Below are positions 5,251-39,041 of a DNA stretch of 39,041 nucleotides, piece by piece. The DNA lies in contig JANXXL010000360.1 in NCBI GenBank assembly GCA_025350625.1, positions 1 through 39,041 of the forward strand, read 5' to 3'. Position 1 is the first letter of the stretch, and every line of letters starts with the position of its first letter. This DNA is from Bryobacterales bacterium. GTDB taxonomy: Bacteria; Acidobacteriota; Terriglobia; Bryobacterales; Bryobacteraceae. The notes beneath the pieces were generated by a model that worked only from the letters and a program-made list of their open reading frames with translations, did no database searches and was not told the origin of the DNA. Both the position numbers and the translations under genes were made by a program.

Positions 5251-5262
5251 GCGCGAACCCGT
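5230..5262. terminator. Possible stem-loop between uvrC and the Roadblock gene
   Basis: ACGGG (5230-5234) can pair with CCCGT (5258-5262) and CGCC (5238-5241) with GGCG (5250-5253), giving an interrupted stem across the uvrC stop codon. No T-tract follows, so it is weak evidence for termination of the two convergent genes. Confidence 0.3.
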
Positions 5263-5283
5263 CCTAACCCATGAAAAACCCGC

Positions 5284-5649: not shown

Positions 5650-5885
5650 GCCGTTTCTCCCTTTGAGGTATTCGCTAGATGAGTATGGATCGGCGAGTAG
5701 GGAAAAAACTTTAGACCGGCGCCGGGGAACGACGTAAGACGATCTAAAGCAGCCGGTCTCGCAGGGTTCCGGTTGGTTTTGAAATTAAGGACCCGGCCCT
5801 AGATTAAAGCGATAAGTACTTTCCCGCATAAAAAGCTTAGGACCGCCCTTGAGGATTGGGGTAAAAGAGCCGATCAACCTAAGGT

Positions 5886-23954: not shown

Positions 23955-24026
23955 TATAAGTTGTGGGCTTTCTCATGGTGACACGATAGTGAGCGCAAGC
24001 AGGCGATGCGCGGCTATAATGGACCG
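23947..24026. promoter_or_regulatory. 12-base inverted repeat spanning the divergent start region
   Basis: CGGTCCATTATA (23947-23958) and TATAATGGACCG (24015-24026) are exact inverted copies, 56 bases apart. The left arm holds the start codon of the SpoU methyltransferase gene. The right arm begins nine bases inside the annotated start of the GT2 gene and contains a perfect TATAAT. It may mark divergent promoter elements or a symmetric regulator site; no -35 match is evident. Confidence 0.5.
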
Positions 24027-24752: not shown

Positions 24753-24761
24753 ACTGGGAGA

Positions 24762-25895
24762 ATGGCAACCAAAGCCCGGCTGCGGTCCATCCCGTTGCTC
24801 GATCTGACGCGTCAATATCAGCCCTTGCGCGAGCCGATCCAAACCGCCATTTCGGCCGTGATTGAATCGCAACGCTTCATTCTGGGAGCCGGTGTCGAGC
24901 ACTTCGAGCAGCGCTTCGCCGATTATTGCGGAGCGCGTTATGCGATCGGCTGTGCGTCGGGCACCGATGCTCTCGAATTGGCTCTCATGGCGCTGGATAT
25001 CGGAGCCGGCGATGAAGTCCTGACCGTGCCGTTCACCTTCTTTGCCACCGCAGGCGCGATCATGAGCGCGGGAGCGCGGCCCGTGTTCGTCGACGTCGAG
25101 CCGGAATCGTTCAACCTCGATGTCCGGCAACTGGACCACGCCCTGGCAACCCACCCGCGCGTTAAAGCAATTCTCCCGGTGCACCTCTATGGCGGCTGCG
25201 CCGACACCGGGCCGATGATCGAACGAGCCGTCGCTCGCCGTATTCCCGTGATTGAAGACGCCGCCCAAGCCGTCGGAGCCGAGTGGCAGGGCCGGCGCGC
25301 GGGCGCGATCGGGACGGTCGGCTGCTTCAGTTTCTTCCCCACCAAAAACCTCGGCGGGTTTGGCGACGGCGGCATGCTCACCACCGACAACGAAGACCTG
25401 GCGCGCAAACTGAAAGCGCTCCGCATCCACGGGTCGGTTGAAAAATACATGCACCAGTGGCCCGGCATGAATTCGCGGCTCGACGCGCTGCAAGCAGCGG
25501 TGCTTGACGTCAAGCTGGATCATCTTGACGACTGGACTCGCGCCCGCCAGCGTAATGCGGCGCTCTACTGCGAGTTGCTGTCGGGAGTGGTGACGACGCC
25601 CGCCGCGCAGCCTTATCAGACCAGCCACGTCTACAATCAGTTTGTGATCCGCTGCGCGCGCCGGGATGAGCTGCGCGCTTTCCTGGCTGAGTCCGGAGTA
25701 GGGACCGAAGTGTATTATCCCCTCCCGCTGCATCTGCAACCGGCGCTCGTAAGCTACGGCCACAAGGCTGGAGATTTCCCGGTCAGTGAACAACTCGCCA
25801 AAGAAGTGCTGGCGCTGCCCATATTCGCCGAACTTACCGAGGAAGAGATCACTGCGGTCGCGGGTTTGATCCGCGAGTTTTACGGGCGGGCGTAA
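24762..25895 (+). CDS. DegT/DnrJ/EryC1/StrS-family sugar aminotransferase
   Basis: The 377-residue protein is a PLP enzyme of the nucleotide-sugar aminotransferase family. Visible marks are 'IPLLDLTRQYQPLREPI' at the start, 'GCASGTDALELALMAL', 'VPFTFFATAGAI', the PLP-contact 'VIEDAAQAVGAEWQGR', the Schiff-base Lys region 'CFSFFPTKNLGGFGDGGM', and 'HQWPGMNSRLDALQAAVLDVKLDHL'. It adds an amino group to a keto-sugar nucleotide, giving an amino sugar for surface glycans. The precise product cannot be assigned. It follows the GT2 gene by nine bases and precedes a peptidase gene by 16, so the run may be one transcript. Confidence 0.95.
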   Translation: MATKARLRSIPLLDLTRQYQPLREPIQTAISAVIESQRFILGAGVEHFEQRFADYCGARYAIGCASGTDALELALMALDIGAGDEVLTVPFTFFATAGAIMSAGARPVFVDVEPESFNLDVRQLDHALATHPRVKAILPVHLYGGCADTGPMIERAVARRIPVIEDAAQAVGAEWQGRRAGAIGTVGCFSFFPTKNLGGFGDGGMLTTDNEDLARKLKALRIHGSVEKYMHQWPGMNSRLDALQAAVLDVKLDHLDDWTRARQRNAALYCELLSGVVTTPAAQPYQTSHVYNQFVIRCARRDELRAFLAESGVGTEVYYPLPLHLQPALVSYGHKAGDFPVSEQLAKEVLALPIFAELTEEEITAVAGLIREFYGRA

Positions 25896-25911
25896 CCCCG
25901 GAGGCTTTTCT

Positions 25912-28038
25912 ATGCGCGTTTTGCATCAATTCATAGCCGTATTTCTGGCGGCTTCAATTTTCAGCGTTGCCGCGGACAATTTGCCGCCCGTCCCGCAAAC
26001 GCCCAAGAAGCCGGTGACTGACGACTACCAGGGCGTACAAGTGGTCGATGACTACCGCTGGCTCGAACCCCCCGCCGACCCCGATGTTCGCAAGTGGAGC
26101 GATCAGCAGAACGCCCGCACCCGGGCATATCTGGATCATCTCCCGAATAGAGCCGAGATCGTGGAACGGCTGAATCAACTGAACAGCAGCTCCTCGATCC
26201 GTTTCTCAGCTCTCATTTCGCGCGGCGGCATGCTCTTCGCGCTCAAGACCCAGCCGCCGAAGCGGCAAGCCTACCTGGTAGCGCTGGCTTCGCCCGACGA
26301 TCCGGATTCCGCGCGCACAGTAGTCGATCCCAACGCGCTCGATCCCAGCGGGACCACCACCATTGACTTCTATGTGCCGTCGCTCGACGGCAAACTGCTG
26401 GCTGTCTCGCTCTCGAAAGGCGGCAGTGAAGATGGCGCCGTTTCTGTCTTCGACGCCGCCACCGGAAAGCAGCTCGGGGACAGCGTGCCGCGCGTCAATG
26501 GAGCCACTGCCGGTGGCAGCGTAGCCTGGAATCGAGACTCCACCGGTTTCTGGTATACCCGCTATCCTCGCGAGGGCGAGCGTCCTGCGGCCGATCTAAA
26601 TTTCTACCAGCAAGTTTATTTTCACCGCCTCGGCACGCCCACCGCGCAGGACGAATACGCCGTCGGCAAGCAGTTTCCGCGCATCGCCGAGGTCTTCCTG
26701 CGGTCCTCTGACGACGGCAAATACGTCCTCGCGCGCGTTGCCAATGGCGATGGCGGTGAATTCCTGCACTTCATGTTATTGCCCGACGGCCAGTGGCACC
26801 AGATCACGCGTTTTTCCGACCATACCTCCGAAGCAAACTTCGGAGCGGACGGAACGCTGTACCTCTTGACGCGTAAAGATGCTCCCATGGGCAAGATACT
26901 GGCCCTGACACCGCCGGCGTTCTCCGTCGCGAACGCAAAAACGATTGTGACGGCGACGCTATCCTCGATCGATGGCTTCGTCAAGGCGGGTTCGCATCTC
27001 TTCGTGCGCTATATGGCTGGCGGACCCTCCAAGCTGTTCGATATCGAATCCGGCAAACCCGACAAGCCCATTGACGTTCCGACGATTTCCTCGGTGGGAC
27101 AAATGGTGGCCCTCGGCGGCAATCAATTGCTGTTCGAGAACCAGAGTTTCGTCGAACCCCCAGCGTGGTTTCGCTATGACCCCGCCAACGGGCAGATGAA
27201 GAAGACGGCCTTATTCCAGACCACGCCTGCAGACTTCAGCGACGTCGAAGTCCTCCGTCAGATGGCTTCATCGAAAGACGGCACGCGCGTTCCCATGACC
27301 ATCCTCCGTCGCAAAGGCACCAAACTCGATGGCAAGAATCCAACGCTCCTCACCGCTTACGGCGGGTACGGAATCAATCAGGCCCCCACTTTTTCCGTGC
27401 GCCGCCGGCTGTGGCTGGAACACGGCGGTGTGTGGGTAGTGGCCAACCTGCGCGGTGGCGGCGAGTTCGGTGATACCTGGCATGAACAAGGACGCCTGAC
27501 CAAAAAACAAAATGTTTTTGACGACTTCATCGCCTGCGCCGAGACTCTTATCAAGACAAAGTACACCAGTCCCGATAAGCTGGTCATCGAAGGCGGCAGC
27601 AACGGCGGCCTGCTGATGGGCGCCGCGCTGACGCAACGGCCCGAACTCTTCCACGCCGTCGCAAGCCACGTCGGCATTTACGACATGCTGCGCGTCGAAA
27701 CCTTTCCGAATGGTGTTTTCAATGTGACTGAGTTCGGAACCGTGAAGGAGAAGGACCAGTTCCAGGCGCTCTACGCCTATTCGCCCTACCATCACGTAAA
27801 GGACGGTACCGATTATCCGGCCGTGCTCTTCCTCACCGGCGCAAACGATGGCCGGGTGGATCCTATGAACTCGCGAAAAATGACCGCGCGCTTGCAGGCC
27901 GCGACTAAATCCGACCGGCCCATCTTGCTGCGCACCAGCGCCGACTCGGGCCATGGCATCGGCGCAGCCTTAAACCAGCGCATCGAACAGGACGCCGACG
28001 TATTCTCGTTCCTGTTCGATCAATTAGGAATGAAGTAG
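25912..28038 (+). CDS. Secreted prolyl oligopeptidase family (S9) peptidase
   Basis: The 708-residue protein has a signal peptide (about 1-21, ending near SVAADN). It has the S9A N-terminal mark 'VVDDYRWLE', a beta-propeller region (about 70-430), and a C-terminal alpha/beta hydrolase domain. The catalytic residues are visible: Ser in 'IEGGSNGGLLMG', Asp in 'TGANDGRVDPMNS', and His in 'ADSGHGIG'. 'LRGGGEFGDTWHEQG' is the conserved loop before the catalytic part. It should cleave short proline-containing peptides in the periplasm or outside the cell. The ribosome site GGAGG lies about ten bases before the ATG. Its 3' end overlaps the convergent asparagine synthetase gene by 15 bases. Confidence 0.95.
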   Translation: MRVLHQFIAVFLAASIFSVAADNLPPVPQTPKKPVTDDYQGVQVVDDYRWLEPPADPDVRKWSDQQNARTRAYLDHLPNRAEIVERLNQLNSSSSIRFSALISRGGMLFALKTQPPKRQAYLVALASPDDPDSARTVVDPNALDPSGTTTIDFYVPSLDGKLLAVSLSKGGSEDGAVSVFDAATGKQLGDSVPRVNGATAGGSVAWNRDSTGFWYTRYPREGERPAADLNFYQQVYFHRLGTPTAQDEYAVGKQFPRIAEVFLRSSDDGKYVLARVANGDGGEFLHFMLLPDGQWHQITRFSDHTSEANFGADGTLYLLTRKDAPMGKILALTPPAFSVANAKTIVTATLSSIDGFVKAGSHLFVRYMAGGPSKLFDIESGKPDKPIDVPTISSVGQMVALGGNQLLFENQSFVEPPAWFRYDPANGQMKKTALFQTTPADFSDVEVLRQMASSKDGTRVPMTILRRKGTKLDGKNPTLLTAYGGYGINQAPTFSVRRRLWLEHGGVWVVANLRGGGEFGDTWHEQGRLTKKQNVFDDFIACAETLIKTKYTSPDKLVIEGGSNGGLLMGAALTQRPELFHAVASHVGIYDMLRVETFPNGVFNVTEFGTVKEKDQFQALYAYSPYHHVKDGTDYPAVLFLTGANDGRVDPMNSRKMTARLQAATKSDRPILLRTSADSGHGIGAALNQRIEQDADVFSFLFDQLGMK

Positions 28039-29898
28039 ATCCGGCGCCCTCACGCGACTCGCTCGCAGCCAGTTTTCGAGCACCACCAACGTCCACAATT
28101 GCACCGGCGCACGTCCCTGCTCGATAGCCCTCGATACAGCGCCTGCCAGTTCACCTTTGCGCATCCAGCCTTGCTGTTCCAAAAGAGGGTCCTCGACCAG
28201 CGCGTCCAGTTGGGGCCGCCAGCCGTTCGCCAGCCAGTTCTCGACGGGAACGGTGAAGCCTTGTTTTTTTCGGCTGGCCACTTGAGGCCCGACGTTGCGG
28301 CGCACCAGGGCCCGCAGGATCGCCTTCAACTCATTGCCGCGCAGCCGCATCTCAATCGGCAGAGACGCCGCATGCTCCCACATGCACTGATCGAGAAACG
28401 GAGAGCGCGCTTCGATCGAATAATACATGGCCCCGCCATCCACTTTGGTCATGTACTCGGCCAAGAAGCGGGTGCGAAGCTCGTATCCCAAAAAGTCGCG
28501 CATCAATTCGCGGCCGGAGTCGAAGGAATCTGCAATCTGGCGGTGCGACATCTGTCTTCCCGAGAGGCGCTCCCCGAGCATGCCGGCACGTTCGTAATAC
28601 GGCAACCCGTCATGGGTTCGAGTCACCGCGCCCAGCCCACCGACGGCGTAATCGGTCAAATGCATCCCCCGCCGCAATGCCGGAATCCGCGCCACCGCAG
28701 GACGCAAAGCAGGCCATAGCCGCGCCGCCTGCCGCGGCAGGAGCCGGGATAAACGCTGAGCGTAGTGGAAATTCCGGTGATGGTTGTAACCGAGAAAGAC
28801 GTCGTCCCCGCCATCGCCGGTCAGCAGCACCGTGGCTTTCGCTTTCACGGCCTTGCACACCTGCAACATGCCTAGCGCGGAGGAACAGGCGAAGGGCTCC
28901 CCATAAGCGTGGGTTAAATCCTGCAACGCAGGTTGCTCGCCGGGAGCAAGCTCGATGACCTCGTGCGGGATTCCCAGAATGCGGGCGGTCTCGCGGGCGT
29001 CTTCCGATTCGTCGGAGGGATGGCCCGGCGTTCCCACCGTGAACACTTTCACGTTCGCGTTCAGCTTGGCCATAGCCCATGCGATAAGAGTGGAATCGAT
29101 CCCTCCGCTGAGCAAAGCGCCGACCGGGACATCGGCGATCAAGCGGAGTTTCACGACTTCGAGCAGCAGAGCTTCCGTTCGATTCACCGCGTCGTCGAAG
29201 CTGATGCGCTGCGACCCGGGTTCCGGCGATGTCCAGTAGCAGCGTTGCTGAATGCGCCCGTCCTGCCATTCGACGATGGTGGCAGCCGGCACTTTCCGCG
29301 CCCCCGCGTAAATGGCCAGGTCTTCGCTAACCCAGCCGAATTCTAGAAATTCGAGCACCGCTGCGGGATCGATCTCGTCAACCAAGCCCGCCTCGCGAAG
29401 CGCCGTGATGGTGGAAGCGAAGCCGATCTGTCCGTTCGTCGCGGCATAGAGCAATGGTTTGACGCCCAACCGGTCGCGTACCAGCGTAAGCTTGCGCTGC
29501 GGATTATCCCAAATCCCGAAAGCAAACATTCCGCGCAGCCGGGGGACCATCCCGTCGATTCCCCACTGCCGGTAGCCGTTGAGGAGAACCTCCGTATCGG
29601 TATTAGACCGAAAGCGGTGCCCACTCGATTCGAGCTCCTTGCGCAGCTCCTGGAAATTATAGATACACCCGTTGAATACCAGCCCGATCTCGCCGTCGTC
29701 GGAAAGCATGGGCTGATTCCCGGCCGCGCTTACGTCCAGGATCGCCAGCCGGCGATGTCCCAGAACCGCCTCGGGCCAAGTGGAGACGCCCTCGGAATCC
29801 GGGCCGCGCCGCGCCAGAGAGCACACCATGGCGTCGACCGCCTGACGTGCGCCTCGCGGATCAATCGACCGCCCGACGAGACCCGCAATCCCACACAT
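28024..29898 (-). CDS. asnB: Glutamine-hydrolysing asparagine synthetase
   Basis: The 624-residue protein begins MCGIAGLVGRS. The class II glutaminase nucleophile is Cys2, with 'LGHRRLAILD' and 'FNGCIYNFQELR' behind it. The synthetase half has the PP-loop 'GALLSGGIDSTLIAWAM' and 'LLTGDGGDDVFLGYNHH', then 'YYSIEARSPFLDQCMWEHA'. It makes asparagine from aspartate, ATP and glutamine. Homologues in surface-glycan clusters often instead amidate sugar acids or act on other carboxylates, so the true substrate is open. It lies divergent to the flippase gene with 25 bases between the start codons, inside the glycan region. Confidence 0.95.
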   Translation of the reverse strand: MCGIAGLVGRSIDPRGARQAVDAMVCSLARRGPDSEGVSTWPEAVLGHRRLAILDVSAAGNQPMLSDDGEIGLVFNGCIYNFQELRKELESSGHRFRSNTDTEVLLNGYRQWGIDGMVPRLRGMFAFGIWDNPQRKLTLVRDRLGVKPLLYAATNGQIGFASTITALREAGLVDEIDPAAVLEFLEFGWVSEDLAIYAGARKVPAATIVEWQDGRIQQRCYWTSPEPGSQRISFDDAVNRTEALLLEVVKLRLIADVPVGALLSGGIDSTLIAWAMAKLNANVKVFTVGTPGHPSDESEDARETARILGIPHEVIELAPGEQPALQDLTHAYGEPFACSSALGMLQVCKAVKAKATVLLTGDGGDDVFLGYNHHRNFHYAQRLSRLLPRQAARLWPALRPAVARIPALRRGMHLTDYAVGGLGAVTRTHDGLPYYERAGMLGERLSGRQMSHRQIADSFDSGRELMRDFLGYELRTRFLAEYMTKVDGGAMYYSIEARSPFLDQCMWEHAASLPIEMRLRGNELKAILRALVRRNVGPQVASRKKQGFTVPVENWLANGWRPQLDALVEDPLLEQQGWMRKGELAGAVSRAIEQGRAPVQLWTLVVLENWLRASRVRAPDLLHS

Positions 29899-29923
29899 AT
29901 CCTAATTATCTCAGCCTGGAGCG

Positions 29924-31543
29924 GTGCCGCGGGCAGGCTACAATCAAACTACAGCCCACTCGGGAGGAACAACGACGGAGACCAACACGCTTGGCGAAGG
30001 CCAGGAAAGATGGGCCGAACGATTTTTCGTAAACGTCGTTTGGAGCTGGCTGGGCGTGATTGCCAGCTTCCTGACCGGTTTTTTCCTTTCGCCGTACATC
30101 ATTCGAAAACTGGGGGAGCAAAGATACGGGATCTGGGCGCTGGCCTTCGCGTTCATCGATTATTTCACCTTCTTCGATTTCGGATTCAAGTCCGCAATCA
30201 TCAATTTTGTCTCCCGCTTCCGCGGGCAAAATGATCGCGACTCCATCAACGAAGTAGTCAACACCGCGCTGTACTATTTCCTCGGAATCGCAATACTTTT
30301 GCTTACTGCGACGTGGCTGATTTCAGGGCAGCTCCACCGCTTCTTTAAGATTTCGCCGGAGTATCAGGCTGAATTTGCGGTGCTGGTGCGCATCATCGGC
30401 GTGGGCTGGTCGGCGGCGATTGCGCTGAACGTTTTTGTGGCCGGCCTCGAAGCCTTCCAGCGTTTCAAAGTGCAGAACCACATCGCCGTTCTGTCGTTGA
30501 TTCTGCGCTCGGGAACCAGCGCTGTGCTTCTTTTCTTCGGCTACGGATTGACCGCCATGGGAGTGGCCGTCATGTTCAGCCAATTCGTGAGTTACGGGCT
30601 CACTTTCCTTGGTTTCCGGCGCGCGTTCCCCGCCTTGCGCATTTCCCCCTCGCTGGTGCGGAGAAGGATGTGGAAGCAACTGGCGCAATATGGAATCCAT
30701 TCGTTCGTTGCGCAGCTCGGCGCCATGCTGCAAAATCAAGGGCCGCCGGTCCTCATCGGGCACTTCCGCACCGAAGCATTCGTCGGTTATTACACTCTTC
30801 CCAATCGCCTTTTGCAGTACATGGTCGAGATGGTGACGCGCATCGCCTCGGTCACTACGCCCAACACCGCGGAGCTTCTGGCGCAAGGCAAGCGCGACCG
30901 CATCGCACGCCTGGGAGTGTATTTGAACCGCTATTGTTTCGCGCTTTTTGTGCCGCTCAGCCTGTTCCTGTTGATCTATGGAAAGGCGCTGATTGAGCTT
31001 TGGGTGGGTCCGGCGTTCAGCATGCATGCGGCCCCCTTGCTGCCCGCTTTCGTGCTGATGACGTCGTTTGGCGTCGCGGGACAGTTCAACTCCGTGGGAA
31101 TTCTTTTCGGGATGGCCAAGCACGATACCTTCGCCAAGGCCATGGTGACGGAAGCTGTAACCACTTTGATCGGCATGACCCTGGTGCTTCCGCGATTCGG
31201 GATCCTCGGCGCAGCCTGGGTGGCGTGCGGAGTGGCCATCGCGAATCGGGGGCTGGTCACTCCCTACTTGCTCTGCCGCAATCTCGAATTGAGCTTGCCT
31301 CGCTACTTGCGGGCGATTTATTTGGTGCCGGTGCTGTTAGCCCTGCCCACGGCGGTGCTCGCGTACTGGATGCGGAATTCCTGGCTTCCCGGGAAAAATT
31401 GGATGGAGCTGCTGATGGCGCTGGCGATTTTGAGCGCGCAGTACTATGCCGTATTCTTTTTCACCGGCTTCGACAGGGAGCACCGATCGATGCTCCAGGA
31501 GTGGGTTACCCGCAGGCTACAAATCCGCCGCGCCCGCGCATAA
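29924..31543 (+). CDS. Polysaccharide flippase (Wzx/oligosaccharide exporter type)
   Basis: The 539-residue protein has about 12-14 hydrophobic helices and the family's opening 'GLVASF-like' segment (VIASFLTGFFLSPYIIRKLGEQRYGIWALAFAF split at 30055-30160), 'FDFGFKSAIINFVSRFRG', and a conserved mid-part 'LAQYGIHSFVAQLGAMLQNQ'. It should move lipid-linked glycan repeat units across the inner membrane. The true start is uncertain: GTG 29924 is the only obvious start codon; a strong GGGAGG lies at 29960 with no standard start codon behind it, and the first 30 residues are polar and not conserved-looking. It leads the group containing the carrier protein and ligase genes, 62 bases upstream of the former. 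Confidence 0.88.
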   Translation: MPRAGYNQTTAHSGGTTTETNTLGEGQERWAERFFVNVVWSWLGVIASFLTGFFLSPYIIRKLGEQRYGIWALAFAFIDYFTFFDFGFKSAIINFVSRFRGQNDRDSINEVVNTALYYFLGIAILLLTATWLISGQLHRFFKISPEYQAEFAVLVRIIGVGWSAAIALNVFVAGLEAFQRFKVQNHIAVLSLILRSGTSAVLLFFGYGLTAMGVAVMFSQFVSYGLTFLGFRRAFPALRISPSLVRRRMWKQLAQYGIHSFVAQLGAMLQNQGPPVLIGHFRTEAFVGYYTLPNRLLQYMVEMVTRIASVTTPNTAELLAQGKRDRIARLGVYLNRYCFALFVPLSLFLLIYGKALIELWVGPAFSMHAAPLLPAFVLMTSFGVAGQFNSVGILFGMAKHDTFAKAMVTEAVTTLIGMTLVLPRFGILGAAWVACGVAIANRGLVTPYLLCRNLELSLPRYLRAIYLVPVLLALPTAVLAYWMRNSWLPGKNWMELLMALAILSAQYYAVFFFTGFDREHRSMLQEWVTRRLQIRRARA

Positions 31544-31605
31544 CAGGGCCGGCCTCCATCTGTCACTATGGAAGTATCTTCTTGAGGGAGGCGATTGCGC
31601 TAAAC

Positions 31606-31854
31606 ATGGCGGACAGTGATTGTTTGGAAGCGGTGGGGGCCATTATCCGCGAGGTATGCGGGATTAGCGGCTTACAACCCGACCAGGATTTTTACGATGC
31701 TGGCGTGACATCCGTGCAGGCCCTGCCCCTGCTGATGGAACTCGAAGACAGATTTGAGGTGGCGATTCCCGATGACCGCTTTATTGCGGTGCGAAATACC
31801 CGCGCCCTGTGTGCGGTGATCGCGGAAATCAAAACCGGCAGCAACGCCGCATGA
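31606..31854 (+). CDS. Stand-alone acyl/peptidyl carrier protein
   Basis: The 82-residue protein is a four-helix carrier domain. The phosphopantetheine site is Ser36 in 'FYDAGVTSVQALPLLMELE'; the usual DSL is TSV here, with Thr in place of Asp. The later 'FEVAIPDDRF' and 'VRNTRALCAVIAEIK' match helices III and IV. A phosphopantetheinyl transferase must add the cofactor; none is in the window. The start ATG follows a GAGGGAG site about 16 bases upstream. Its stop codon overlaps the next gene's ATG (ATGA), so the two are translationally coupled. With the adjacent seryl-tRNA-synthetase-like ligase it is a strong candidate for a dedicated amino acid carrier, not a fatty acid ACP. Confidence 0.88.
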   Translation: MADSDCLEAVGAIIREVCGISGLQPDQDFYDAGVTSVQALPLLMELEDRFEVAIPDDRFIAVRNTRALCAVIAEIKTGSNAA

Positions 31855-33017
31855 CAAACTCCGTGCGCCTCCAATCCCCAGCCAGTGAGATGGCCCGGGA
31901 AGAGATCTCGAAACAAGTTGCCTTTTTATCCAAATCGATAACCAATGTCAGGTTCTCCGACGACGGGGCTTCTATCACCTTCGAGGCGGATGACGCTGAA
32001 TCCGATGGATTGCAAGCGTCCGTGCAGCAGTTGGGGAACCGTGTCGCCCGCGCGCTACGCAGCCTGCAGCGCAAAATTGTTTTTTCGAGCGCCGCCGCCG
32101 CCGATCCCAAATTTTCAAGCGCGGTTCGCATGGACGGAGTCCATTTTATGGGCAATGGTCAAGTGGCCCTCGCCGGTCTGCCGCTGCGTCTGTTTAATTA
32201 CTTCGACCGGGTGTTTGAAGACTTCGGCAAACCCTGGCAGGCGGAGCCGGTGCGGACACCCACCCTGATTCCCACGAAAACCCTGTCCCGCTGCGATTAT
32301 TTTCGCTCCTTCCCGCAGAACGTTACCTTCGCCAGTCACCTGCGCGAAGAAGGAGATGTGATTGACGGATTCCGAGCCCGCCATCAAACCGCCGATGACG
32401 TGGATGACCATGCGCTGGCGGATATGGAGCGCCCCGAAGCGTGTCTATCGCCGGCGGTTTGTTATCACGTCTACCGTATGCATCAGGATGAAACTCTGCC
32501 TGCGCAGGGATTGATCTACGGCATCTGCGGGAAGTGCTTCCGCTACGAATCTTCGAACCTCTCCGACCTGCGGCGGCTGTGGGACTTCACCATGCGCGAA
32601 GTGGTGTTTCTCGGAACCCGCGAGGACGTGCTGGCGAAGCGCGAAAAATCGATGACCATGATGGCGGAATTTCTAGACGCGCATCAACTGGCAGGCGAGA
32701 TTCGGACTGCCAGCGACCCCTTCTTTGTAGCGCCCGACGCCGTCTCCAAAACTTACTTCCAGTTGAGCTCGGATTCAAAATTCGAAGTTTCCCTGATGTT
32801 ACCCGCAGGGGAACGCACCGCCGTCGGGTCTCATAACTATCATTCCGACTTTTTTGGACGCGTCTTTCATACCGACATCGCGGGCGCGGGCGCGATGCAC
32901 AGCGTATGCGTGGCGTTCGGTCTCGAGCGCTGGGTATACGCGTTCCTGCAACAGCACGGCTCCGACCCCTCTCAGTGGCCCGAACCTGTGCGTGGAGCGC
33001 CTGAGTTCCGGGGCTAG
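31851..33017 (+). CDS. Amino acid:[carrier protein] ligase, class II seryl-tRNA synthetase-like
   Basis: The 388-residue protein keeps the class II aminoacyl-tRNA synthetase core. Motif 2 is 'CFRYESSNLSDLRRLWDFTM' (about 229-248), then REVVFLGT. Motif 3 is 'VAFGLERW' (about 354-361). Probable zinc ligands are Cys148 (SRCDYFRSF), Glu196 (ERPEACL) and Cys353 (HSVCVAFG), as in methanogen-type SerRS and in the ligases that load glycine or alanine onto carrier proteins. The helical tRNA-binding arm of true SerRS is missing; about 90 N-terminal residues are unlike it. It should form an aminoacyl-adenylate and pass the amino acid to the pantetheine of the carrier encoded just upstream. The amino acid is not decided by sequence here. 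A tRNA role is unlikely. Confidence 0.87.
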   Translation: MTNSVRLQSPASEMAREEISKQVAFLSKSITNVRFSDDGASITFEADDAESDGLQASVQQLGNRVARALRSLQRKIVFSSAAAADPKFSSAVRMDGVHFMGNGQVALAGLPLRLFNYFDRVFEDFGKPWQAEPVRTPTLIPTKTLSRCDYFRSFPQNVTFASHLREEGDVIDGFRARHQTADDVDDHALADMERPEACLSPAVCYHVYRMHQDETLPAQGLIYGICGKCFRYESSNLSDLRRLWDFTMREVVFLGTREDVLAKREKSMTMMAEFLDAHQLAGEIRTASDPFFVAPDAVSKTYFQLSSDSKFEVSLMLPAGERTAVGSHNYHSDFFGRVFHTDIAGAGAMHSVCVAFGLERWVYAFLQQHGSDPSQWPEPVRGAPEFRG

Positions 33018-33021
33018 GCGC

Positions 33022-33999
33022 ATGGAATACCGTCCGCTAGACGGAGCCTCCTTCGCGGTCGAGGCCAGTGAGTTGCTCCAGGGAGCCTGGCGGCCGCCGG
33101 CGCTTTTCTATAGCCCGGAATATCTGAAATGGCAGCTCTCGTTTCCGGGGCCGTTCCCGGCTCCGGCAATTGCAGGGTTCGACGGAACGACGCCGGTCGG
33201 CTTCGCGGCATCGATGCATCGCCAAGTACGGTTCACGGCCGCCGCGATCGACGCCGTCATTGTCTCCTTCGTCGCCGTGCATTCGGATTTTCATAATCGC
33301 GGAATCGCGGCCCGTTTGTACGCCAATTTGCTGGCAGCGATTCGGGAGCGGGAAATTCCCGTCATCACATATGCGGTTTCGGGATCTGCCGGGGAGCGCG
33401 CTATCGAGCGGGCCTATCCCGGCGCGGGCTTCGTCCTTCACTCGCTAGGCTCGTTTCCGCTATACGGTTTCGCCGTGCGACCGGAGACGGATGTCGGCAC
33501 GTGGACTCCCGCGGCAGTCGGCGAGGAATGGCTGGTCTTAGACAGTTTGATCGATCGCGGTATCGCTGGGGAAGGCCGGATTTGCAGCCATCCTACCGTG
33601 GCTCAGATGGAGCATTACCTAAAGGACCCGCGTGGCAGGCAGCTCCTGGTCGAACGGGGCGGCGACGGCACCGCGACCGCTGCGGCGTGGGCCGCGCAGG
33701 TGGAGCATAGAGGGGTGAACGGGAATCACTCGGTGATTACCATCGACTGCGCGTGGTTGGCCCCCGAAAGAGCCCATGCTTTACCGGGTCTGGCAGCAGC
33801 CGCCGTCCGCGTGTGGCCCGAACCGGGCTCGCCCGGGCCGGTGATCGTGCAAGCCTCCAGCCTGTGCGGATTCGATCCCCAAGCGTTGCGTAAGGCCGGC
33901 TTCCGGCAGATCGCAACTCCGTTTCAAGGTTATGTGGCAGCCGCCGGCGCGGGGCACCCGTTTTGCGAAGCCCGAGGATCGAACCTCGAGGTCGTGTAG
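33022..33999 (+). CDS. GNAT-fold acyl/aminoacyl transferase-like protein
   Basis: The 325-residue protein starts five bases after the ligase gene. Its N-terminal half is a GNAT domain with the acyl-donor phosphate-binding motif 'SFVAVHSDFHNRGIAARLY' (about 82-100; R-x-x-G-x-A type HNRGIA). The C-terminal half (about 170-325) looks like a second, degenerate GNAT unit (ITIDCAWLAPERAHALPGL, then 'FDPQALRKAGFRQIA'). GNAT enzymes take acyl groups from CoA or carrier-protein pantetheine. Placed next to a carrier and its amino acid ligase, it is the best candidate for moving the aminoacyl group to an acceptor; this is inference. The start ATG 33022 gives the normal domain begin. A glycosyltransferase follows after eight bases. 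Confidence 0.8.
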   Translation: MEYRPLDGASFAVEASELLQGAWRPPALFYSPEYLKWQLSFPGPFPAPAIAGFDGTTPVGFAASMHRQVRFTAAAIDAVIVSFVAVHSDFHNRGIAARLYANLLAAIREREIPVITYAVSGSAGERAIERAYPGAGFVLHSLGSFPLYGFAVRPETDVGTWTPAAVGEEWLVLDSLIDRGIAGEGRICSHPTVAQMEHYLKDPRGRQLLVERGGDGTATAAAWAAQVEHRGVNGNHSVITIDCAWLAPERAHALPGLAAAAVRVWPEPGSPGPVIVQASSLCGFDPQALRKAGFRQIATPFQGYVAAAGAGHPFCEARGSNLEVV

Positions 34000-34007
34000 G
34001 CTCATCC

Positions 34008-35036
34008 ATGAAGGTGCTGTATTCCCGTCCGCTCACCGCCCCGAAGATTCAACTTCCGCAAAATTTCCAGCAGATAGAAGACGAGTCGGATCTATCGTGG
34101 CGGTTGGCGCAGCGGTTTCGTTGGGCCGGCCGTTATTCCGAGCATCTTGCGGGTTTGCGCCTGGCCCTTACACTACTCGGTCTGCGGCGAGGGTTTGACG
34201 TGGTGGTTACCGGCCGCTATGGCGAATGGTTCGCCTTGCTGCAAAGTTTCTTACCGTCCGGCAGGCGTCCTCACCTTCTTCTGGATGTCGAATGGTATGA
34301 GAGTCACAGCAACGCGTGGCGCCGCAAGTTCAATCGCTGGCTGCATCGCCGGATTATACAGGGCGCGACCAGAGTACAAGTGTTTTGTCAGATCGAGGCC
34401 CGCAACTATGCCGCCTATTTTGGGGTGGAGGAATCGAAATTTCTGTGGATTCCGTACTGTACGGACGCCGATCGCACCGCCGCAGCGCCTCGCGAAGATG
34501 CCGATTTCATCTTCACCAGCGGCGTGCATCAGCGCGATTATCGGACGCTGCTGGCCGCCGTCGCCGGACTTCCGGTGGAGTTACGAATTGCGGCTCCGCG
34601 CGATGAGTTTCGCTCTCTGGAACTTCCCGCAAACGTGAAGCTGCTCGGCGAAATCCCCGCATCGGACTACTGGAAGACGTTGAAGAGCGCGCGTTTCCTG
34701 GTGCTTTCTCTGCATCCCGAAACTCTGCGGCGTCCTGGCGTGATCACCTACGCCGGGGCGATGCGCATGGGCAAGTGTGTGGTGGTAAACGACCCGGCGG
34801 GGGCGGCGAGCTACCTCCGTGATGGGGAAACGGGATTCCTGGTCCGCCCGGCAGATCCCGAGGCGCTCCGTGCGCAAATCTCTTTCCTGTTGGACCATCC
34901 GGAAACGGTAATTGCGACAGGGGAAAACGCCGCAGAGGCGGCCCGAAAAACGTTCTCGGTCGCACAGTACATCGTTGCGCTTGAGAGCGCAGTGCAACAA
35001 ACGCTGTTAGCGGAAGGCCTGCTACAAGTCCGTTGA
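34008..35036 (+). CDS. GT-B-type glycosyltransferase
   Basis: The 342-residue protein has a GT4-like layout. The N-terminal half is divergent ('KVLYSRPLTAPKIQLPQNF', 'GFDVVVTGRYGEWFALLQSF'). The C-terminal half has 'DFIFTSGVHQRDYRTLLAAV', 'VKLLGEIPASDYWKTLKSARFLVLSL', 'GVITYAGAMRMGKCVVVND' and 'ETGFLVRPADPEALRAQI'. The usual E-x7-E donor site is only partly kept, so the exact family is unsure. ATG 34008 is chosen over an ORF extension to 33963 because it begins the first strand and lies eight bases after the GNAT gene. The tight spacing makes it part of the carrier/ligase/GNAT transcript. The 3' end overlaps the convergent methyltransferase gene by 15 bases. Confidence 0.8.
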   Translation: MKVLYSRPLTAPKIQLPQNFQQIEDESDLSWRLAQRFRWAGRYSEHLAGLRLALTLLGLRRGFDVVVTGRYGEWFALLQSFLPSGRRPHLLLDVEWYESHSNAWRRKFNRWLHRRIIQGATRVQVFCQIEARNYAAYFGVEESKFLWIPYCTDADRTAAAPREDADFIFTSGVHQRDYRTLLAAVAGLPVELRIAAPRDEFRSLELPANVKLLGEIPASDYWKTLKSARFLVLSLHPETLRRPGVITYAGAMRMGKCVVVNDPAGAASYLRDGETGFLVRPADPEALRAQISFLLDHPETVIATGENAAEAARKTFSVAQYIVALESAVQQTLLAEGLLQVR

Positions 35037-35705
35037 ATCGGTTCCCCAGTTTTTACGGACCACTCCAATGCCCATCCTCCCCTGGTTCCGATCCTCAACG
35101 AATTCTTCGACCGGAACCTGCTGGCTCAGCTCGTTCCAAAAACGGTCGACCGTGCATTCGGGGACGACGTTGGGAATGATATCGTGGAACGCAATCAGGC
35201 CTCCCTGGCGCACCAGCGGAGCGTACATCAGATAGTCCTGTTTGACACCCTCATAGCTATGATCGCCATCGATGAACAGCAGATCCAGTGCGTTTCCTTT
35301 GAGTATTCTCTTCACTTCCCCGAGCGACGCGGGCGCGTGCGAATCGGCGCGCAGGAAGAACGACTTCTGGCCGGGGAGAGTTAACCGGCGATAGACGTGG
35401 GTCTTCCATTGCGAGTAGCCCCCGCCGAGCGGCCCGCCGGGAAGGTCCAGGCTGATGAGCGTGGCATCGCGGACAGCGCTTCGCGCCAGCAGGAAAAAGT
35501 TGCCCCCCTGCGCGGTCCCGATTTCAAGGATGTACCTGGGCTTCAACTTTTCGGCCGCTTCGAGAAACCGGATCGCTTCGGATTTGACCTGCAGCGGATT
35601 CAGGAACCCGTTAGCGAATTGTTGTGCTTGTTTGAAGATTTCAGCCCAGGAATGACGCTCGCGATTCATCCTGCGCAGTTTTGGAAGACGGAAAAGCAGC
35701 TGCAT
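35022..35705 (-). CDS. Class I SAM-dependent methyltransferase (cephalosporin hydroxylase/CmcI-like)
   Basis: The protein of about 227 residues has the SAM-binding glycine motif 'YILEIGTAQGGNFFLLARSA' and then 'TLISLDLPGGPLGGGYSQWK', 'LDLLFIDGDHSYEGVKQDYL' and 'GGLIAFHDIIPNVVPE'. The 'FIDGDHSYEGVK.D' and 'HDI' parts are typical of the group of methyltransferases common in surface-glycan clusters. It may methylate a sugar hydroxyl; the substrate is unknown. The start is uncertain: ATG 35705 is chosen, with ATG 35669 or GTG 35738 as alternatives; the longer reading to 35993 has an Arg-rich, unlikely N-terminus. Confidence 0.85.
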   Translation of the reverse strand: MQLLFRLPKLRRMNRERHSWAEIFKQAQQFANGFLNPLQVKSEAIRFLEAAEKLKPRYILEIGTAQGGNFFLLARSAVRDATLISLDLPGGPLGGGYSQWKTHVYRRLTLPGQKSFFLRADSHAPASLGEVKRILKGNALDLLFIDGDHSYEGVKQDYLMYAPLVRQGGLIAFHDIIPNVVPECTVDRFWNELSQQVPVEEFVEDRNQGRMGIGVVRKNWGTDSTDL

Positions 35706-35850
35706 CAGCAGGGCAGCCTTCGCTAGGCGAGTATTCACTTTTGCATCAGTGTAACATTCCGGTTGGCCGCTAAGAGTGCGGTATCCTGAAGCGCATGACA
35801 CGGTATTTCGCGCACCTATGCTCGAATCGCCCTGGTGAAGTATAGCGGGA

Positions 35851-36453
35851 ATGCGGCGCTTATACCTGACGGTTCGGCTAGGCCTGACCCTTCTGGGCCT
35901 TGCGTGGGTGCTGGTAACCGTGACTCCGCTAACGCGCTGGTACGCGGCCATGCTGGCGGGACCGTGGCTGGAACCCAAGGGCGATATTCTCATCGTGCTG
36001 GGTGCGGATGAACCGACCGACGGCTTGATCGGACCCGTTACTTACTGGCGTTCCGTGTATGCCGTTCGCGCCTGGCGCGAAGGCGGATTCAACTCCGTGG
36101 TGGTGAGCGGAGGGAACGGCCTGGCGGACTCAATGAAAGAATTCCTCCAATTCGAAGGCGTGCCGGAAGACAAAATTATGGTGGAGCGGCACGCGCTCTC
36201 CACCCGCGAAAATGCCTTGTATACGGCTGAGTTTCTGAATCATGCGGCGGGTTCGATGGTGCTCCTGACCAGCGATTTTCACGTATATAGAAGCGTTCGG
36301 GCATTTCGGAAAGTGGGTTTGTCCGTCCTGCCGCGATTTTTTCCCTACGCGTTCAAACGTTTTAACAGTTGGCCGGATCGCTGGCCCCTATTTATGGATC
36401 TGTGCGTAGAGACCGCCAAAATCGTTCGCTACCGAATCAGCGGCTGGATTTAG
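35851..36453 (+). CDS. YdcF/DUF218 family membrane-anchored protein
   Basis: The 200-residue protein has one N-terminal membrane helix (about 6-28, LTVRLGLTLLGLAWVLVTVT) and a DUF218 domain outside the membrane. Marks are 'DILIVLGADEPTDG', 'SVVVSGGNGLADSMKEFL', 'MVERHALSTRENALYTAEFL', 'MVLLTSDFHVYRSVRAFRKV' and 'VETAKIVRYRISGWI'. Members such as SanA, ElyC and YdcF affect envelope integrity or undecaprenyl-phosphate metabolism; the catalytic activity is not known. Its position between glycosyltransferase genes suits a role in lipid-carrier-linked glycan assembly. It is divergent from the methyltransferase gene (145-base gap, no clear promoter seen) and is 13 bases before the next glycosyltransferase gene. 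Confidence 0.9.
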   Translation: MRRLYLTVRLGLTLLGLAWVLVTVTPLTRWYAAMLAGPWLEPKGDILIVLGADEPTDGLIGPVTYWRSVYAVRAWREGGFNSVVVSGGNGLADSMKEFLQFEGVPEDKIMVERHALSTRENALYTAEFLNHAAGSMVLLTSDFHVYRSVRAFRKVGLSVLPRFFPYAFKRFNSWPDRWPLFMDLCVETAKIVRYRISGWI

Positions 36454-36466
36454 GACTGGCCAGCTA

Positions 36467-37444
36467 ATGCTGATCGTCACCAACTTTCGATCGTTCCCGC
36501 CCTCGTGGACCGCCTCATCGGGCGAAACCGGCGACAGCGCCGCCGCGACTGGTTATCTCGATTTTGTCCGGTATCGCGACCAGCCCGGCGCGGTATATCT
36601 GGTGAATTGCAACGCGCGGCTTACGTTTCAACTGGCGGCCGCAGCACTCCTGCCGGGCTTCCACCCCCCGTTGATCTCCGCGGATTTAATCCTGCGCCGC
36701 CCTGTCGGTCTGCTGGCCCACCTGAGCGTGCCCGTGAAGCGATTTCTACTTTCCCATGTGGATCACTTCATTCACTACTTTCGGGACGTGCGCGCCTATC
36801 AAGAAATTTTTGGCATAGGCGAGGACCGCAGCACGTTTGTCCCGTTTAAATCCAATCTAAGCGACCGCCATCGGATCGGACCGCAGTACGAAGGTGAGTA
36901 TGTGCTCTGTTTCGGACGTTCCTTGCGTGACTTCGACACTTTCTTCGCGGCCATGGAAGGGTTGCCCTGCGCGGGCGCCATTGCGCGCCCTGATCCAGCG
37001 GAATTGAGGCGCCACTCCGCGAAGTTCAGCCGTCCCCTGGACGCGTTGCCGGAAAATGTCCGCGTCCTCGAAGACGATGGCAGCGAGGCCGCACAGCTCC
37101 GGATCTTGGGGGACGCGAAACTGGTGGTTTTGCCGATTCTCAAGACCAGCATGGTGGCTTCGGGAATCAGCACCTGTCTCAACGCGATGATGCTCGGGAA
37201 ATGCGTGATCGGTTCGGAAGGGACGGGCATGACCGACATCTTCACGCAAGGAGAGATCCTGGCGGTCCCGCCGGAAGATCCCATTGCTCTTCGCGAGATG
37301 ATTGGCCGGGCCTGGAATGACCAGGCCCTGCGCGATTCGACCGCCGCCGCCGGGCACACTTATGCTCTGGAGGCAGGCGGGGAACGCGAGCTATACCAGC
37401 GAATTATCGACGAACTGGTATTAAACGGTGGGCGCGGAACGTAG
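36467..37444 (+). CDS. Glycosyltransferase-like protein, GT-B C-terminal half
   Basis: The 325-residue protein has an unusual N-terminal half (LIVTNFRSFPPSWTAS, VYLVNCNARLTFQLAAAALL, SVPVKRFLLSHVDHFIHYFR). Its C-terminal half is GT-B-like: 'EYVLCFGRSLRDFDTFFAAM', 'LRILGDAKLVVLPILKTS', 'GISTCLNAMMLGKCVIGSEG' and 'LAVPPEDPIALREMI'. It probably moves a sugar from a nucleotide donor, but the family is not certain. It lies 13 bases after the YdcF-like gene, likely on one transcript. The 3' end overlaps the convergent acyltransferase gene by 24 bases. Confidence 0.78.
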   Translation: MLIVTNFRSFPPSWTASSGETGDSAAATGYLDFVRYRDQPGAVYLVNCNARLTFQLAAAALLPGFHPPLISADLILRRPVGLLAHLSVPVKRFLLSHVDHFIHYFRDVRAYQEIFGIGEDRSTFVPFKSNLSDRHRIGPQYEGEYVLCFGRSLRDFDTFFAAMEGLPCAGAIARPDPAELRRHSAKFSRPLDALPENVRVLEDDGSEAAQLRILGDAKLVVLPILKTSMVASGISTCLNAMMLGKCVIGSEGTGMTDIFTQGEILAVPPEDPIALREMIGRAWNDQALRDSTAAAGHTYALEAGGERELYQRIIDELVLNGGRGT

Positions 37445-38158
37445 CGAACGGGTCTGCCGCGCCGGATTTCCCGCCACGATAGTATCGGCAGGAACGCTGT
37501 TCATCACTACAGACCCCATGGAGACGATGCTGTTTTCGCCAATCGCCACTCCGGGATAGATGATGGCATTGCTGCCGATCCACACGTTGTCGCCCAGTGT
37601 AATGGCGCGAACATCCTCGAGATTCGCCGGGTTCCCTGCGAGACGGCTGGCTGGATCGGAAGGGTGGCCAGACACGTCAAACATCTGAATACCCGCCGCT
37701 ATGCGGCAGTGTTTGCCGATAGTGATGCGGTCGCCGATCACGAATGAGCAGTTGTGTCCGATTCTCGTTCCGTCGCCGATCGCCAGCGTGGGGCGGTTGG
37801 TGTAGCGAGCGGCAAAAAAGAAATGGCATTGCCCGTCGATGGTGACATCGTCGCCGGCTATCAGATCGCCCTCTCCCTGAACCCAATGCAGAAAAGCTCC
37901 GGTATGGAAATTGCGGCCGTAGCTTTTGCAGTAGACCTTGAACAGCGGCTCGCAGTAGAAGACGCGCACCAGAAAATAATAAGTGGTTCTTATCGCCAGC
38001 ACCACGGCCAGGAGCGGACGGAAAAGAAATCGGGGAGCGGGCACGCTGAAGTTGGTGACCGCACGGTAGCCATGGCGCGCCGAACGAACGGCCCAGTGGT
38101 CCGAGTGCGCGAGAAATCGATACCATCCGGCCATCAGTTCATCATTATCGCGCAGCAA
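37421..38158 (-). CDS. Hexapeptide-repeat (left-handed beta-helix) acyltransferase
   Basis: The protein of about 245 residues has a C-terminal left-handed beta-helix with hexapeptide turns (LAIGDGTRIGHNCSFVIGD, 'ITLGDNVWIGSNAIIYPGV', 'AIGENSIVSMGSVVMNSVP') and the ending 'IVAGNPARQTRSL'. The catalytic His is probably in 'FDVSGHPSDP'. It is of the WcaF/NodL/maltose acetyltransferase type and would put an acetyl or similar acyl group on a sugar. A hydrophobic part (about 45-70) may contact the membrane. The start may be TTG 38158, six bases after the upstream gene's stop codon, or ATG 38134. It is downstream of the GT4 gene on the same strand. Confidence 0.9.
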   Translation of the reverse strand: MLRDNDELMAGWYRFLAHSDHWAVRSARHGYRAVTNFSVPAPRFLFRPLLAVVLAIRTTYYFLVRVFYCEPLFKVYCKSYGRNFHTGAFLHWVQGEGDLIAGDDVTIDGQCHFFFAARYTNRPTLAIGDGTRIGHNCSFVIGDRITIGKHCRIAAGIQMFDVSGHPSDPASRLAGNPANLEDVRAITLGDNVWIGSNAIIYPGVAIGENSIVSMGSVVMNSVPADTIVAGNPARQTRSLRSAPTV

Positions 38159-38164
38159 CTGGAA

Positions 38165-39041
38165 CTAAGAAGCCAGCACCTCTAGAAACAGGGTTTCGTA
38201 GCACGTCACCACGCGGGGAGTTGCATAGTGATCGAGAATGCGCCGCCGGGCGGCCGCGCCCATGCGGGCTCGCAAGTCCGCGTCGTCGAGAAGACGAACC
38301 AGGCCGCGTGCGATTTCCTCTAAATTCCCCATGGGTGTGACCAGGCCGTGGATTTCCGTTTCGATTAGCTGCGTGTGCGCCGGGATCTCACTCACCAAAG
38401 CCGGAAGGCCAGATGACATGGCTTCAATTAAAGAACAGGGAAGTCCTTCGACGGCGGAAACCATAGTGAAAACATCGCTCGCGTGGAGCCATTTCAGCAC
38501 GCCGCCCGCATCCAGGCGGCCGGCGAGAATGAGATTGCGGTCAATTTCGAGATCGTGCGCCATTTTTACGATTTGCGCGCGCAGCGGGCCATCCCCCACC
38601 AGCACCAGGGTCGCGCGCGGGCGTTCGCGCACCACGAGTTGGAACCCGCCCAACAGCCAGGGCAGTTCTTTTTGCGTATCCAGGCGGCCGACAAAAACGA
38701 CCAGCGGCGTTTCCGGAGCTATGTTCAATTCTTGACGGCGCTGCTCGCGCTCACTGGAGGTACAGGAATAGAACACGTCCGTATCCACCGGATTCGGCAT
38801 CCAGCCCAGCCGAGCGGGATCGAGTCCGACGTCGATCGCTTCCTGCTTCATGCCCGGATTGAGGACCAAAATCCGTGTCGCCCATCGCTTGAGGAAACGC
38901 AATTCTAAGCGCCCGGAAAAAGACTCTGTCATCTGCGTAATCAGACCGCTGCAGGAGAATTTCATCACGATGCGTTTCCCCAGCAGTCCTGCAACGGGAA
39001 GGCCGGTAGCCAATTGCAGCCCCTGCATCAAAAAATAGGCG
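38165..39041 (-). CDS. GT4-family glycosyltransferase (N-terminus outside the window)
   Basis: The frame is open to the last base, reading AYFLMQGLQLATGLPVAG at the visible start, which is mid-domain for a GT4 enzyme; the first part of the gene lies beyond 39041. About 292 residues are present. The C-terminal half has 'PLVVFVGRLDTQKELPWLLG', 'LVLVGDGPLRAQIVKMAHDL', 'ILAGRLDAGGVLKWLHASDV' and the donor site 'SAVEGLPCSLIEAMSSGLPA', an E-x7-E pattern. It should transfer a sugar from a nucleotide donor in glycan synthesis. It precedes the hexapeptide acyltransferase gene by six bases, so they are probably co-transcribed. Confidence 0.92.
   Translation of the reverse strand, partial: AYFLMQGLQLATGLPVAGLLGKRIVMKFSCSGLITQMTESFSGRLELRFLKRWATRILVLNPGMKQEAIDVGLDPARLGWMPNPVDTDVFYSCTSSEREQRRQELNIAPETPLVVFVGRLDTQKELPWLLGGFQLVVRERPRATLVLVGDGPLRAQIVKMAHDLEIDRNLILAGRLDAGGVLKWLHASDVFTMVSAVEGLPCSLIEAMSSGLPALVSEIPAHTQLIETEIHGLVTPMGNLEEIARGLVRLLDDADLRARMGAAARRRILDHYATPRVVTCYETLFLEVLAS

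Follow-up and report, generated by a model that had tools for sequence, protein, structure and literature searches.

What does a carrier protein with its own amino acid ligase do in the middle of a gene cluster for glycan assembly? The question is raised by contig JANXXL010000360.1 of a Bryobacterales bacterium (assembly GCA_025350625.1), whose 39,041 analysed nucleotides are called the window below, and in which genes for a carrier protein, a truncated relative of seryl-tRNA synthetase (SerRS) and a GNAT protein directly follow each other. The original prediction took these three for a coupled unit making aminoacylated surface glycans, with the GNAT passing the aminoacyl group on from the carrier. 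A fourth gene, for a hexapeptide acyltransferase of the left-handed beta-helix (LbH) type, was absent from that prediction and is added here:

31606–31854, plus strand: carrier protein, 82 residues, Ser36 in an AGVTS phosphopantetheine motif (PF00550, E 3e-13)
31851–33017, plus strand: SerRS-like amino acid:[carrier protein] ligase, 388 residues (PF00587 above cut-off, NCBIfam, PDB, AlphaFold, Foldseek, tree)
33022–33999, plus strand: tandem-GNAT protein, 325 residues, with an N-myristoyltransferase-like fold (PF00583, AlphaFold, Foldseek, profile)
37421–38158, minus strand: LbH acyltransferase, 245 residues (PF00132)

The four products may form a carrier-protein module for glycan decoration, in which the ligase would load an amino acid, the GNAT would cap it and the LbH would move the capped residue to the glycan, a reading that we place slightly below an even chance. 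The coupled unit would then be larger than earlier described and belong to a known enzyme family, its function being inferred throughout from sequence and models.

The layout agrees with the prediction in its details. The carrier has the predicted length and serine, an ATGA overlap joins its gene to the ligase gene, the GNAT gene starts directly after the ligase with 4 bases between, and Pfam matches and coordinates place a flippase gene upstream and a glycosyltransferase gene 8 bases after the GNAT, within the distance given before. No tandem repeats were found at 24000–39041. The genome encodes a phosphopantetheinyl transferase of the AcpS family, and an ordinary SerRS on another contig.

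The ligase has a class II SerRS-like catalytic core, with PF00587 above its cut-off and Foldseek matches to Bll0957 of Bradyrhizobium and to archaeal-type SerRS, and it is without most of the tRNA-binding N-terminal domain, in line with the truncated enzyme that had been proposed. It has 388 residues against 522–527 in 2cim/3w3s, and its profile aligns from residue 144/168 of those chains; 20–50 residues past the Bll0957 match are still alignable to archaeal-type SerRS. The best PDB sequences are Bll0957 chains (E 1e-28), and the AlphaFold model (pLDDT 92.7), which finds archaeal-type SerRS and Bll0957 at similar E-values, fits Bll0957 far better, with a root-mean-square deviation of 2.2 over 292 columns and a target TM of 0.87. 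Among NCBIfam models the ligase scores best with amino acid--[ACP] ligase PRK07080; its 163.7 bits fall short of the cut-off of 357, which would make the enzyme a relative of this equivalog outside its curated membership. The predicted zinc trio is Cys204, Glu250 and Cys353, which do not vary across an alignment of 44 ligases; they align with positions 151, 196 and 299 of chain 3mey_A, which we take to be the zinc residues C131, E176 and C279 of Bll0957, given a 20-residue tag on that chain. The ligands named before were Cys148, Glu196 and Cys353, of which Cys353 stands, while Cys148 and Glu196 are rejected since neither is invariant in the same alignment.

In a tree of 53 rows, with two type-2 SerRS fragments set by us as outgroup, long branches and a bootstrap not fully settled, the window ligase falls outside SerRS in a clade of 19 (support 100/100) from Acidobacteriota, Planctomycetota, Gemmatimonadota and Sorangium, and the canonical amino acid:[carrier protein] ligases form a separate clade of six rows (100/99). 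Structure comparison and phylogeny, both suggested along with the original prediction, place the enzyme by homology as a relative of the amino acid:[carrier protein] ligases such as Bll0957 and not as a SerRS. A role as second SerRS was rejected, as the full tRNA-binding domain is missing, the tree sets the enzyme apart from SerRS and the ordinary enzyme is encoded elsewhere in the genome. The canonical ligase occurs in five related genomes (L023–L027) in another conserved operon, for example at L024:7822-16440, with a carrier, an acyl-CoA dehydrogenase-like protein, the ligase, DUF1839, a glycosyl hydrolase family 2-like protein, an alpha/beta hydrolase and a methyltransferase (content from a family search in L024 only, with homologues of several parts in L023 and L025–L027).

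How closely the neighbours belong to the window ligase can be judged from other genomes. Among 151 related genomes the ligase is matched in 12 at E 1e-15; four of these, including the window genome, have a close copy (70–100% identity), and the next are at most 35% identical. The GNAT is found at E 1e-8 in only four of the 151, exactly those with the close ligase, and the two genes are no more than 350 bp apart in all of them; the pairing is more than chance. A draw of 399 genomes of the class gave three ligase matches at E 1e-60, two of them close and one of these from the window genome itself. When GTDB contigs were scanned for two peptide patterns, a search that is not a census and may omit records near the window genome, 43 loci were obtained, namely 18 in group A, with ligase identities of 57–78% (Acidobacteriota, Planctomycetota, Gemmatimonadota, Sorangium), and 25 in group B, at 32–43% (Chloroflexota, Myxococcota, Actinomycetota and others). 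The partial ligases of L064 and L067 were omitted from the tree and the locus counts, which leaves 41 of the 43 loci (18 of group A and 23 complete ones of group B); since L017, L018 and L019 coincide with L028, L031 and L032, each pair was taken as one locus, and counts over 19 are the 18 group A loci plus the window. The group A loci are related by descent, with four from Sorangium, so that these counts are not independent, and some of them, such as L035 and L039, lie on short contigs. The ligase is present in few genomes yet highly identical across phyla, which suggests horizontal transfer. Named strains of Sorangium cellulosum are among the bacteria that have this ligase.

A homologous carrier lies just upstream of the ligase in all 18 group A loci (19/19 with the window) and in 16 of the 23 complete group B loci, a weak match in L062 (E 0.01) being left out. 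The tandem GNAT is present in 14/18 group A loci (15/19 with the window), at most 100 bp downstream of the ligase in ten; in L034 and L035 the contig stops within it. The carrier, ligase and GNAT genes are thus kept together in relatives, as had been anticipated for a coupled triplet. Searched through whole genomes at E 1e-5, the GNAT is found in 15 of the 19 genomes with a close ligase and gives no match in the other four. Median identity to the window is 37% for the GNAT (n=13), 51% for the carrier (n=18), 53.5% for the LbH (n=14) and 64% for the ligase (n=18). By these figures the GNAT is the most variable part of the module, which fits expectation if the cap varies.

The LbH has a homologue in the locus in 14 of the 18 group A relatives (15/19 with the window) and in all 19 close-ligase genomes at E 1e-20, with at least 49% identity in 17 including the window; in two of the 19 the homologue is placed elsewhere in the genome and is 40–47% identical. 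It is because of these counts that the LbH is kept as a partner. Among the 151 relatives a close LbH (E <1e-70) is present in six genomes, the four with the ligase together with G012 and G034, and its neighbourhood in G034 includes a carrier, an AMP-binding enzyme and an asparagine-synthase-like fragment. That the LbH is a chance neighbour was considered, a view for which the lone gene of G012 speaks, and was set aside given the locus and genome-wide counts. By its PDB relatives the protein resembles maltose/galactoside O-acetyltransferases, it is extended at the N-terminus by a stretch that looks hydrophobic, and its hexapeptide domain has an invariant His165 in GH(P); this histidine is catalytic in hexapeptide acetyltransferases. 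It scores 79 bits with the maltose O-acetyltransferase model NF007499, which has a cut-off of 314.

The GNAT model (pLDDT 94.2) has its best PDB matches in Foldseek with N-myristoyltransferases over its whole length (E 8e-16, query TM 0.72), and a GNAT profile matches N-myristoyltransferase sequences at E 1.4e-10 over about 80 residues; the score with the Pfam family PF01233 is 20.5 bits, below the cut-off of 25. The predicted fold is a tandem GNAT of the N-myristoyltransferase type. N-myristoyltransferase acylates amines and uses its C-terminal carboxylate as catalytic base. In 12/12 GNATs of the aminoacyl loci whose C-termini were compared, and in that of the window, the chain stops at one conserved E(V/I)x position (the conservation list has 13 rows, the GNAT of L035 and the one beside FkbH being left out and the L034 fragment being too short).

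A coenzyme A (CoA) loop motif is found in 10/14 of these GNATs; L036 has an altered form, and L028, L033 and L045 are without it. Among the GNAT loci it is in the same three alone that a second carrier-like gene together with a loader was found. The loader is FkbH in L028 and L033 and an AMP-binding enzyme in L045, where it is accompanied by an SDR protein and a DSL-type carrier-like stretch, and neither kind was found in the available flanks of the other GNAT loci, some of which are short. Loss of the loop and presence of the second carrier and loader are associated post hoc (Fisher 4/364 = 0.011, or 0.003 if L036 is counted as kept). Complete loss of the loop is confined to the loci with a second carrier and loader, one of the facts that fit a capping enzyme better, and from sequence the cap may come from CoA in most loci and from the second carrier in these three. 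A profile of the second carriers of L028 and L033 matches the carriers of Anaerolineales. The aminoacyl module shares its locus with an FkbH-type loader, the second carrier-like gene and a tandem-family GNAT in L028 and L033 (these genes at L028:10996-14106 and L033:11662-14810), which suggests glyceryl groups besides aminoacyl groups in these two. L033 also has, at 4902-6040, an AAC(3)-like gene (PF02522) with a carrier-like match directly after it (profile E 1e-27).

What stands after the ligase differs between lineages. A different, single-domain GNAT follows within 60 bp in 12 of the 23 complete group B loci (ten from Anaerolineales, L059 and L061), and in the ten Anaerolineales loci it is followed by an AAC(3)-like enzyme, so that the row is carrier, ligase, small GNAT and AAC(3)-like protein in L047–L052, L054, L055, L057 and L070. 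A family search, made for L048 alone, also gave NeuB- and PseF-like genes and a DUF4910/M28-type protein there, and similar NeuB/PseF-like proteins are seen in others of the ten. A relative of the small GNAT comes after the partial ligase of L067, and an LbH follows the ligase in the Myxococcota loci L046 and L053, L056 showing the beginning of one. A formyltransferase, with PF00551 above cut-off, is near the ligase in three loci, 11 bp away in L030, which belongs to group A, 22 bp in L060 and 245 bp in L068, where it is placed after the carrier, and neither the tandem nor the small GNAT was found in these loci. A profile of the three formyltransferases found no further copy in the other collected loci or the window. 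N-acylation of an amine is a reaction common to GNATs and formyltransferases, and moving an aminoacyl group is beyond a formyltransferase; it is mainly on these grounds that the slot is read as that of a cap.

The proposed pathway would start with the ligase activating a small amino acid and loading it as a thioester on the carrier, as judged from its family, and glycine, alanine or serine is our guess from the relatives. The N-myristoyltransferase-like GNAT would then acylate the free amino group of the aminoacyl-carrier, using acyl-CoA where the CoA loop is kept and a second acyl-carrier where it is lost. The LbH, perhaps held at the membrane by its hydrophobic N-terminus, would take the capped aminoacyl group off the carrier and attach it to a sugar at an amino or hydroxyl function. 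Because DegT aminotransferases are found in the window and in G053 and G008, the acceptor is probably a deoxyamino sugar from the DegT branch, and transfer would take place before the flippase exports the lipid-linked glycan. At other loci a small GNAT or a formyltransferase would be the cap, and the mover may be the AAC(3)-like enzyme. N-acetyl-alanyl, N-acetylglycyl and N-(3-hydroxybutyryl)-alanyl groups on deoxyamino sugars, and D-alanyl on a legionaminic acid, are described for O-antigens in PMC3210612 and PMC10609480, and a link of such groups to amino acid:[carrier protein] ligases would be by analogy. More generally, and with less assurance than for the window itself, the SerRS-derived ligases may run interchangeable modules for N-acylated aminoacyl side groups of glycans in several phyla, in which the loader is fixed, the cap is a tandem GNAT, small GNAT or formyltransferase and the mover an LbH or AAC(3)-like enzyme; this could be the role of this branch of the ligases and one source of the N-acyl-aminoacyl sugars of O-antigens.

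The glycan side of the proposal comes from the neighbouring genes, which in the window are:

24762–25895, plus strand: DegT/DnrJ aminotransferase (PF01041, E 8e-110)
28024–29898, minus strand: asparagine-synthase-like amidotransferase (nearest NCBIfam model TIGR03108, below its cut-off)
29924–31543, plus strand: Wzx-like polysaccharide flippase (PF13440, E 5e-19)
34008–35036, plus strand: glycosyltransferase, group 1 / GT4 type (PF00534, E 5e-13)
35022–35993, minus strand: methyltransferase (Methyltransf_24, by family search), within the locus
35851–36453, plus strand: DUF218 (ElyC-like) protein (by family searches), within the locus
36467–37444, plus strand: glycosyltransferase (relatives in the G087, G053, G008 and L030 loci)
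38165–39040, minus strand: group 1 glycosyltransferase, cut by the contig end (PF00534, E 7e-31)

Not only in the window but in many group A loci the module is found among glycosyltransferases, flippases and sugar enzymes. The DegT/DnrJ aminotransferase may supply the amino sugar that serves as acceptor; its counterparts in G053 and G008 are accompanied by a WecD-like GNAT (a reading of a PF00583 match and its position). The flippase has a 50% identical relative in G053 (L017_4), and relatives of the glycosyltransferase at 34008–35036 are near the ligase in G008 (L019_7) and L030 (L030_13). The amidotransferase is kept in the glycan loci of G053 and G008 (66 and 57% identity) and is nearest to XrtA/PEP-CTERM amidotransferases. 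About 21 kb from the module, at 9554–10573, the window also encodes an LPG_synthase_TM (PF03706) membrane protein.

Several observations weigh against the load, cap and move pathway. Enzymes of the LbH class normally O-acetylate sugars with acetyl-CoA, the LbH lies 11–15 kb from the ligase in G008 and G053, and that of G012 (L079:3117-3863, 56% identical) has neither carrier nor ligase nor glycan genes in the surrounding 9 kb. The formyltransferase of L030 is on the opposite strand and the contig of L060 has only 3083 bases, and both formyltransferases and GNATs can act on sugar amines instead of the aminoacyl-carrier. L037 has an LbH but neither GNAT nor formyltransferase, and L059 and L061 have the small GNAT but neither an LbH nor an AAC(3)-like gene in the locus. 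The CoA loop correlation was found after looking, in a set whose Sorangium rows are closely related and where some contigs have only short sequence, the second carriers are our reading of short open reading frames (ORFs), and Pfam matched neither that of L017/L028 nor that of L045. As to context, the operons of Sorangium are outside a glycan cluster as far as surveyed (L040 by family search), and in L043 a close ligase lies beside an ORF of 2813 residues read as nonribosomal peptide synthetase/polyketide synthase (NRPS/PKS)-like, where the GNAT was not found. The glycan setting assumed in the original prediction is thus seen in the window and many loci, but not in the Sorangium operons and L043. 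In L043:7887-19669 and in L022 the SerRS-like ligase and carrier have common transporter-like neighbours, as read from sequence, and the loader of L043 may also feed peptide synthesis.

The tight linkage of GNAT and ligase would also be explained if, as first predicted, it is the GNAT that takes the aminoacyl group off the carrier and places it on a sugar, lipid-linked glycan or peptide, the LbH only O-acetylating the glycan, and in G053 a GNAT of the same family (first-pass E 1e-6) comes after FkbH and the second carrier-like gene. There is a precedent that speaks against our assignment, as PMC6331615 describes two GNATs that move acyl groups from carriers in vitro, SbzC transferring beta-methylphenylalanine from SbzG/SbzK and SbzI transferring sulfamoylacetate, with SbzC being similar to mycothiol acetyltransferase. 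We nevertheless consider the GNAT rather unlikely as the mover: it is unmatched in four of the 19 close-ligase genomes, three loci have a formyltransferase near the ligase where no GNAT was found, the CoA loop is kept in 10/14, and the LbH is more widely distributed. What stands of the predicted pathway is the coupling, within a glycan locus and kept in relatives, of an acyltransferase to a SerRS derivative that would load the carrier; the assignment of the transfer step to the GNAT is less supported, with GNAT in 15 and LbH homologues in all of the 19 genomes and formyltransferases in the slot.

The glycan genes might also be mere neighbours of a module that makes an N-acyl amino acid or peptide, small and either secreted or lipid-bound. 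N-myristoyltransferase, which the GNAT matches in fold, is an amine acylator, and the Sorangium loci L038–L041, which stand apart from glycan genes, have a compact row of an LPG_synthase_TM membrane protein (searched in L040 and L041), LbH, carrier, ligase and GNAT, where the acceptor could be a lipid. Like the close ligase of L043, the distant ones of L062, L065 and L069 have large ORFs as neighbours, which we read as NRPS/PKS-like from their AMP-binding-like stretches, and PMC6331615 cites FeeM as an acyl-carrier-using GNAT. The glycosyltransferases, flippases and sugar enzymes around the module in the window and many group A loci, and the NeuB- and PseF-like genes of the Anaerolineales locus L048, make such a product decidedly improbable. 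Still more improbable, in our judgement, is that GNAT and LbH act on sugar nucleotides with acetyl-CoA, apart from the carrier, and that the carrier–ligase pair serves an unrelated step. Both acyltransferase families are common in glycan loci and the LbH of G012 does occur alone, but among the 151 relatives the GNAT is confined to the genomes with the close ligase, and the adjacency of carrier, ligase and acyltransferase recurs with different enzyme families in different phyla.

If the proposal of loading, capping and transfer is true, it gives a job to this branch of the ligases, which has a fixed carrier, two acyltransferase partners and a glycan context in many loci across several phyla, and it explains how amino acids could be activated and capped before they reach deoxyamino sugars. 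A SerRS-like ligase together with a GNAT or in a glycan locus was not found in the open-licence literature among the matches listed, which is weak evidence of novelty.

Compared with known systems, the ligases and final transferases of AlmEFG and Dlt belong to other families than those of the window module. AlmEFG of Vibrio cholerae (PMC4790380) and the Dlt systems are alike in bringing an amino acid onto a surface glycolipid via a carrier, as is proposed here. The SbzB–SbzG/K–SbzC set of SB-203208 biosynthesis (PMC6331615) also has an amino-acid-loaded carrier and a GNAT using it, as the GNAT of the window would, but its loader is adenylate-forming and no SerRS derivative, and its product is a small antibiotic. 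With eukaryotic N-myristoyltransferase the window GNAT shares the tandem-GNAT fold over the full length, local sequence similarity and the conserved C-terminal end, and differs in being only 11–14% identical and below the PF01233 cut-off. Likewise the LbH has the hexapeptide domain and invariant His165 of maltose/galactoside O-acetyltransferases, and differs in its longer N-terminus, its genetic link to the carrier and ligase and scores below curated cut-offs. The nearest known system is Bll0957 of Bradyrhizobium (PDB 3mey, 3pzc, 4h2s), which has the same class II core, the three zinc ligands, a neighbouring carrier and no full tRNA-binding domain; the window ligase is about 30% identical to it, is below the PRK07080 cut-off in a clade of its own, and can be aligned over an N-terminal stretch, outside the Bll0957 match, with part of archaeal-type SerRS. 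Its partners are a GNAT and an LbH, whereas the canonical type in related genomes is found with the acyl-CoA dehydrogenase-like protein and DUF1839.

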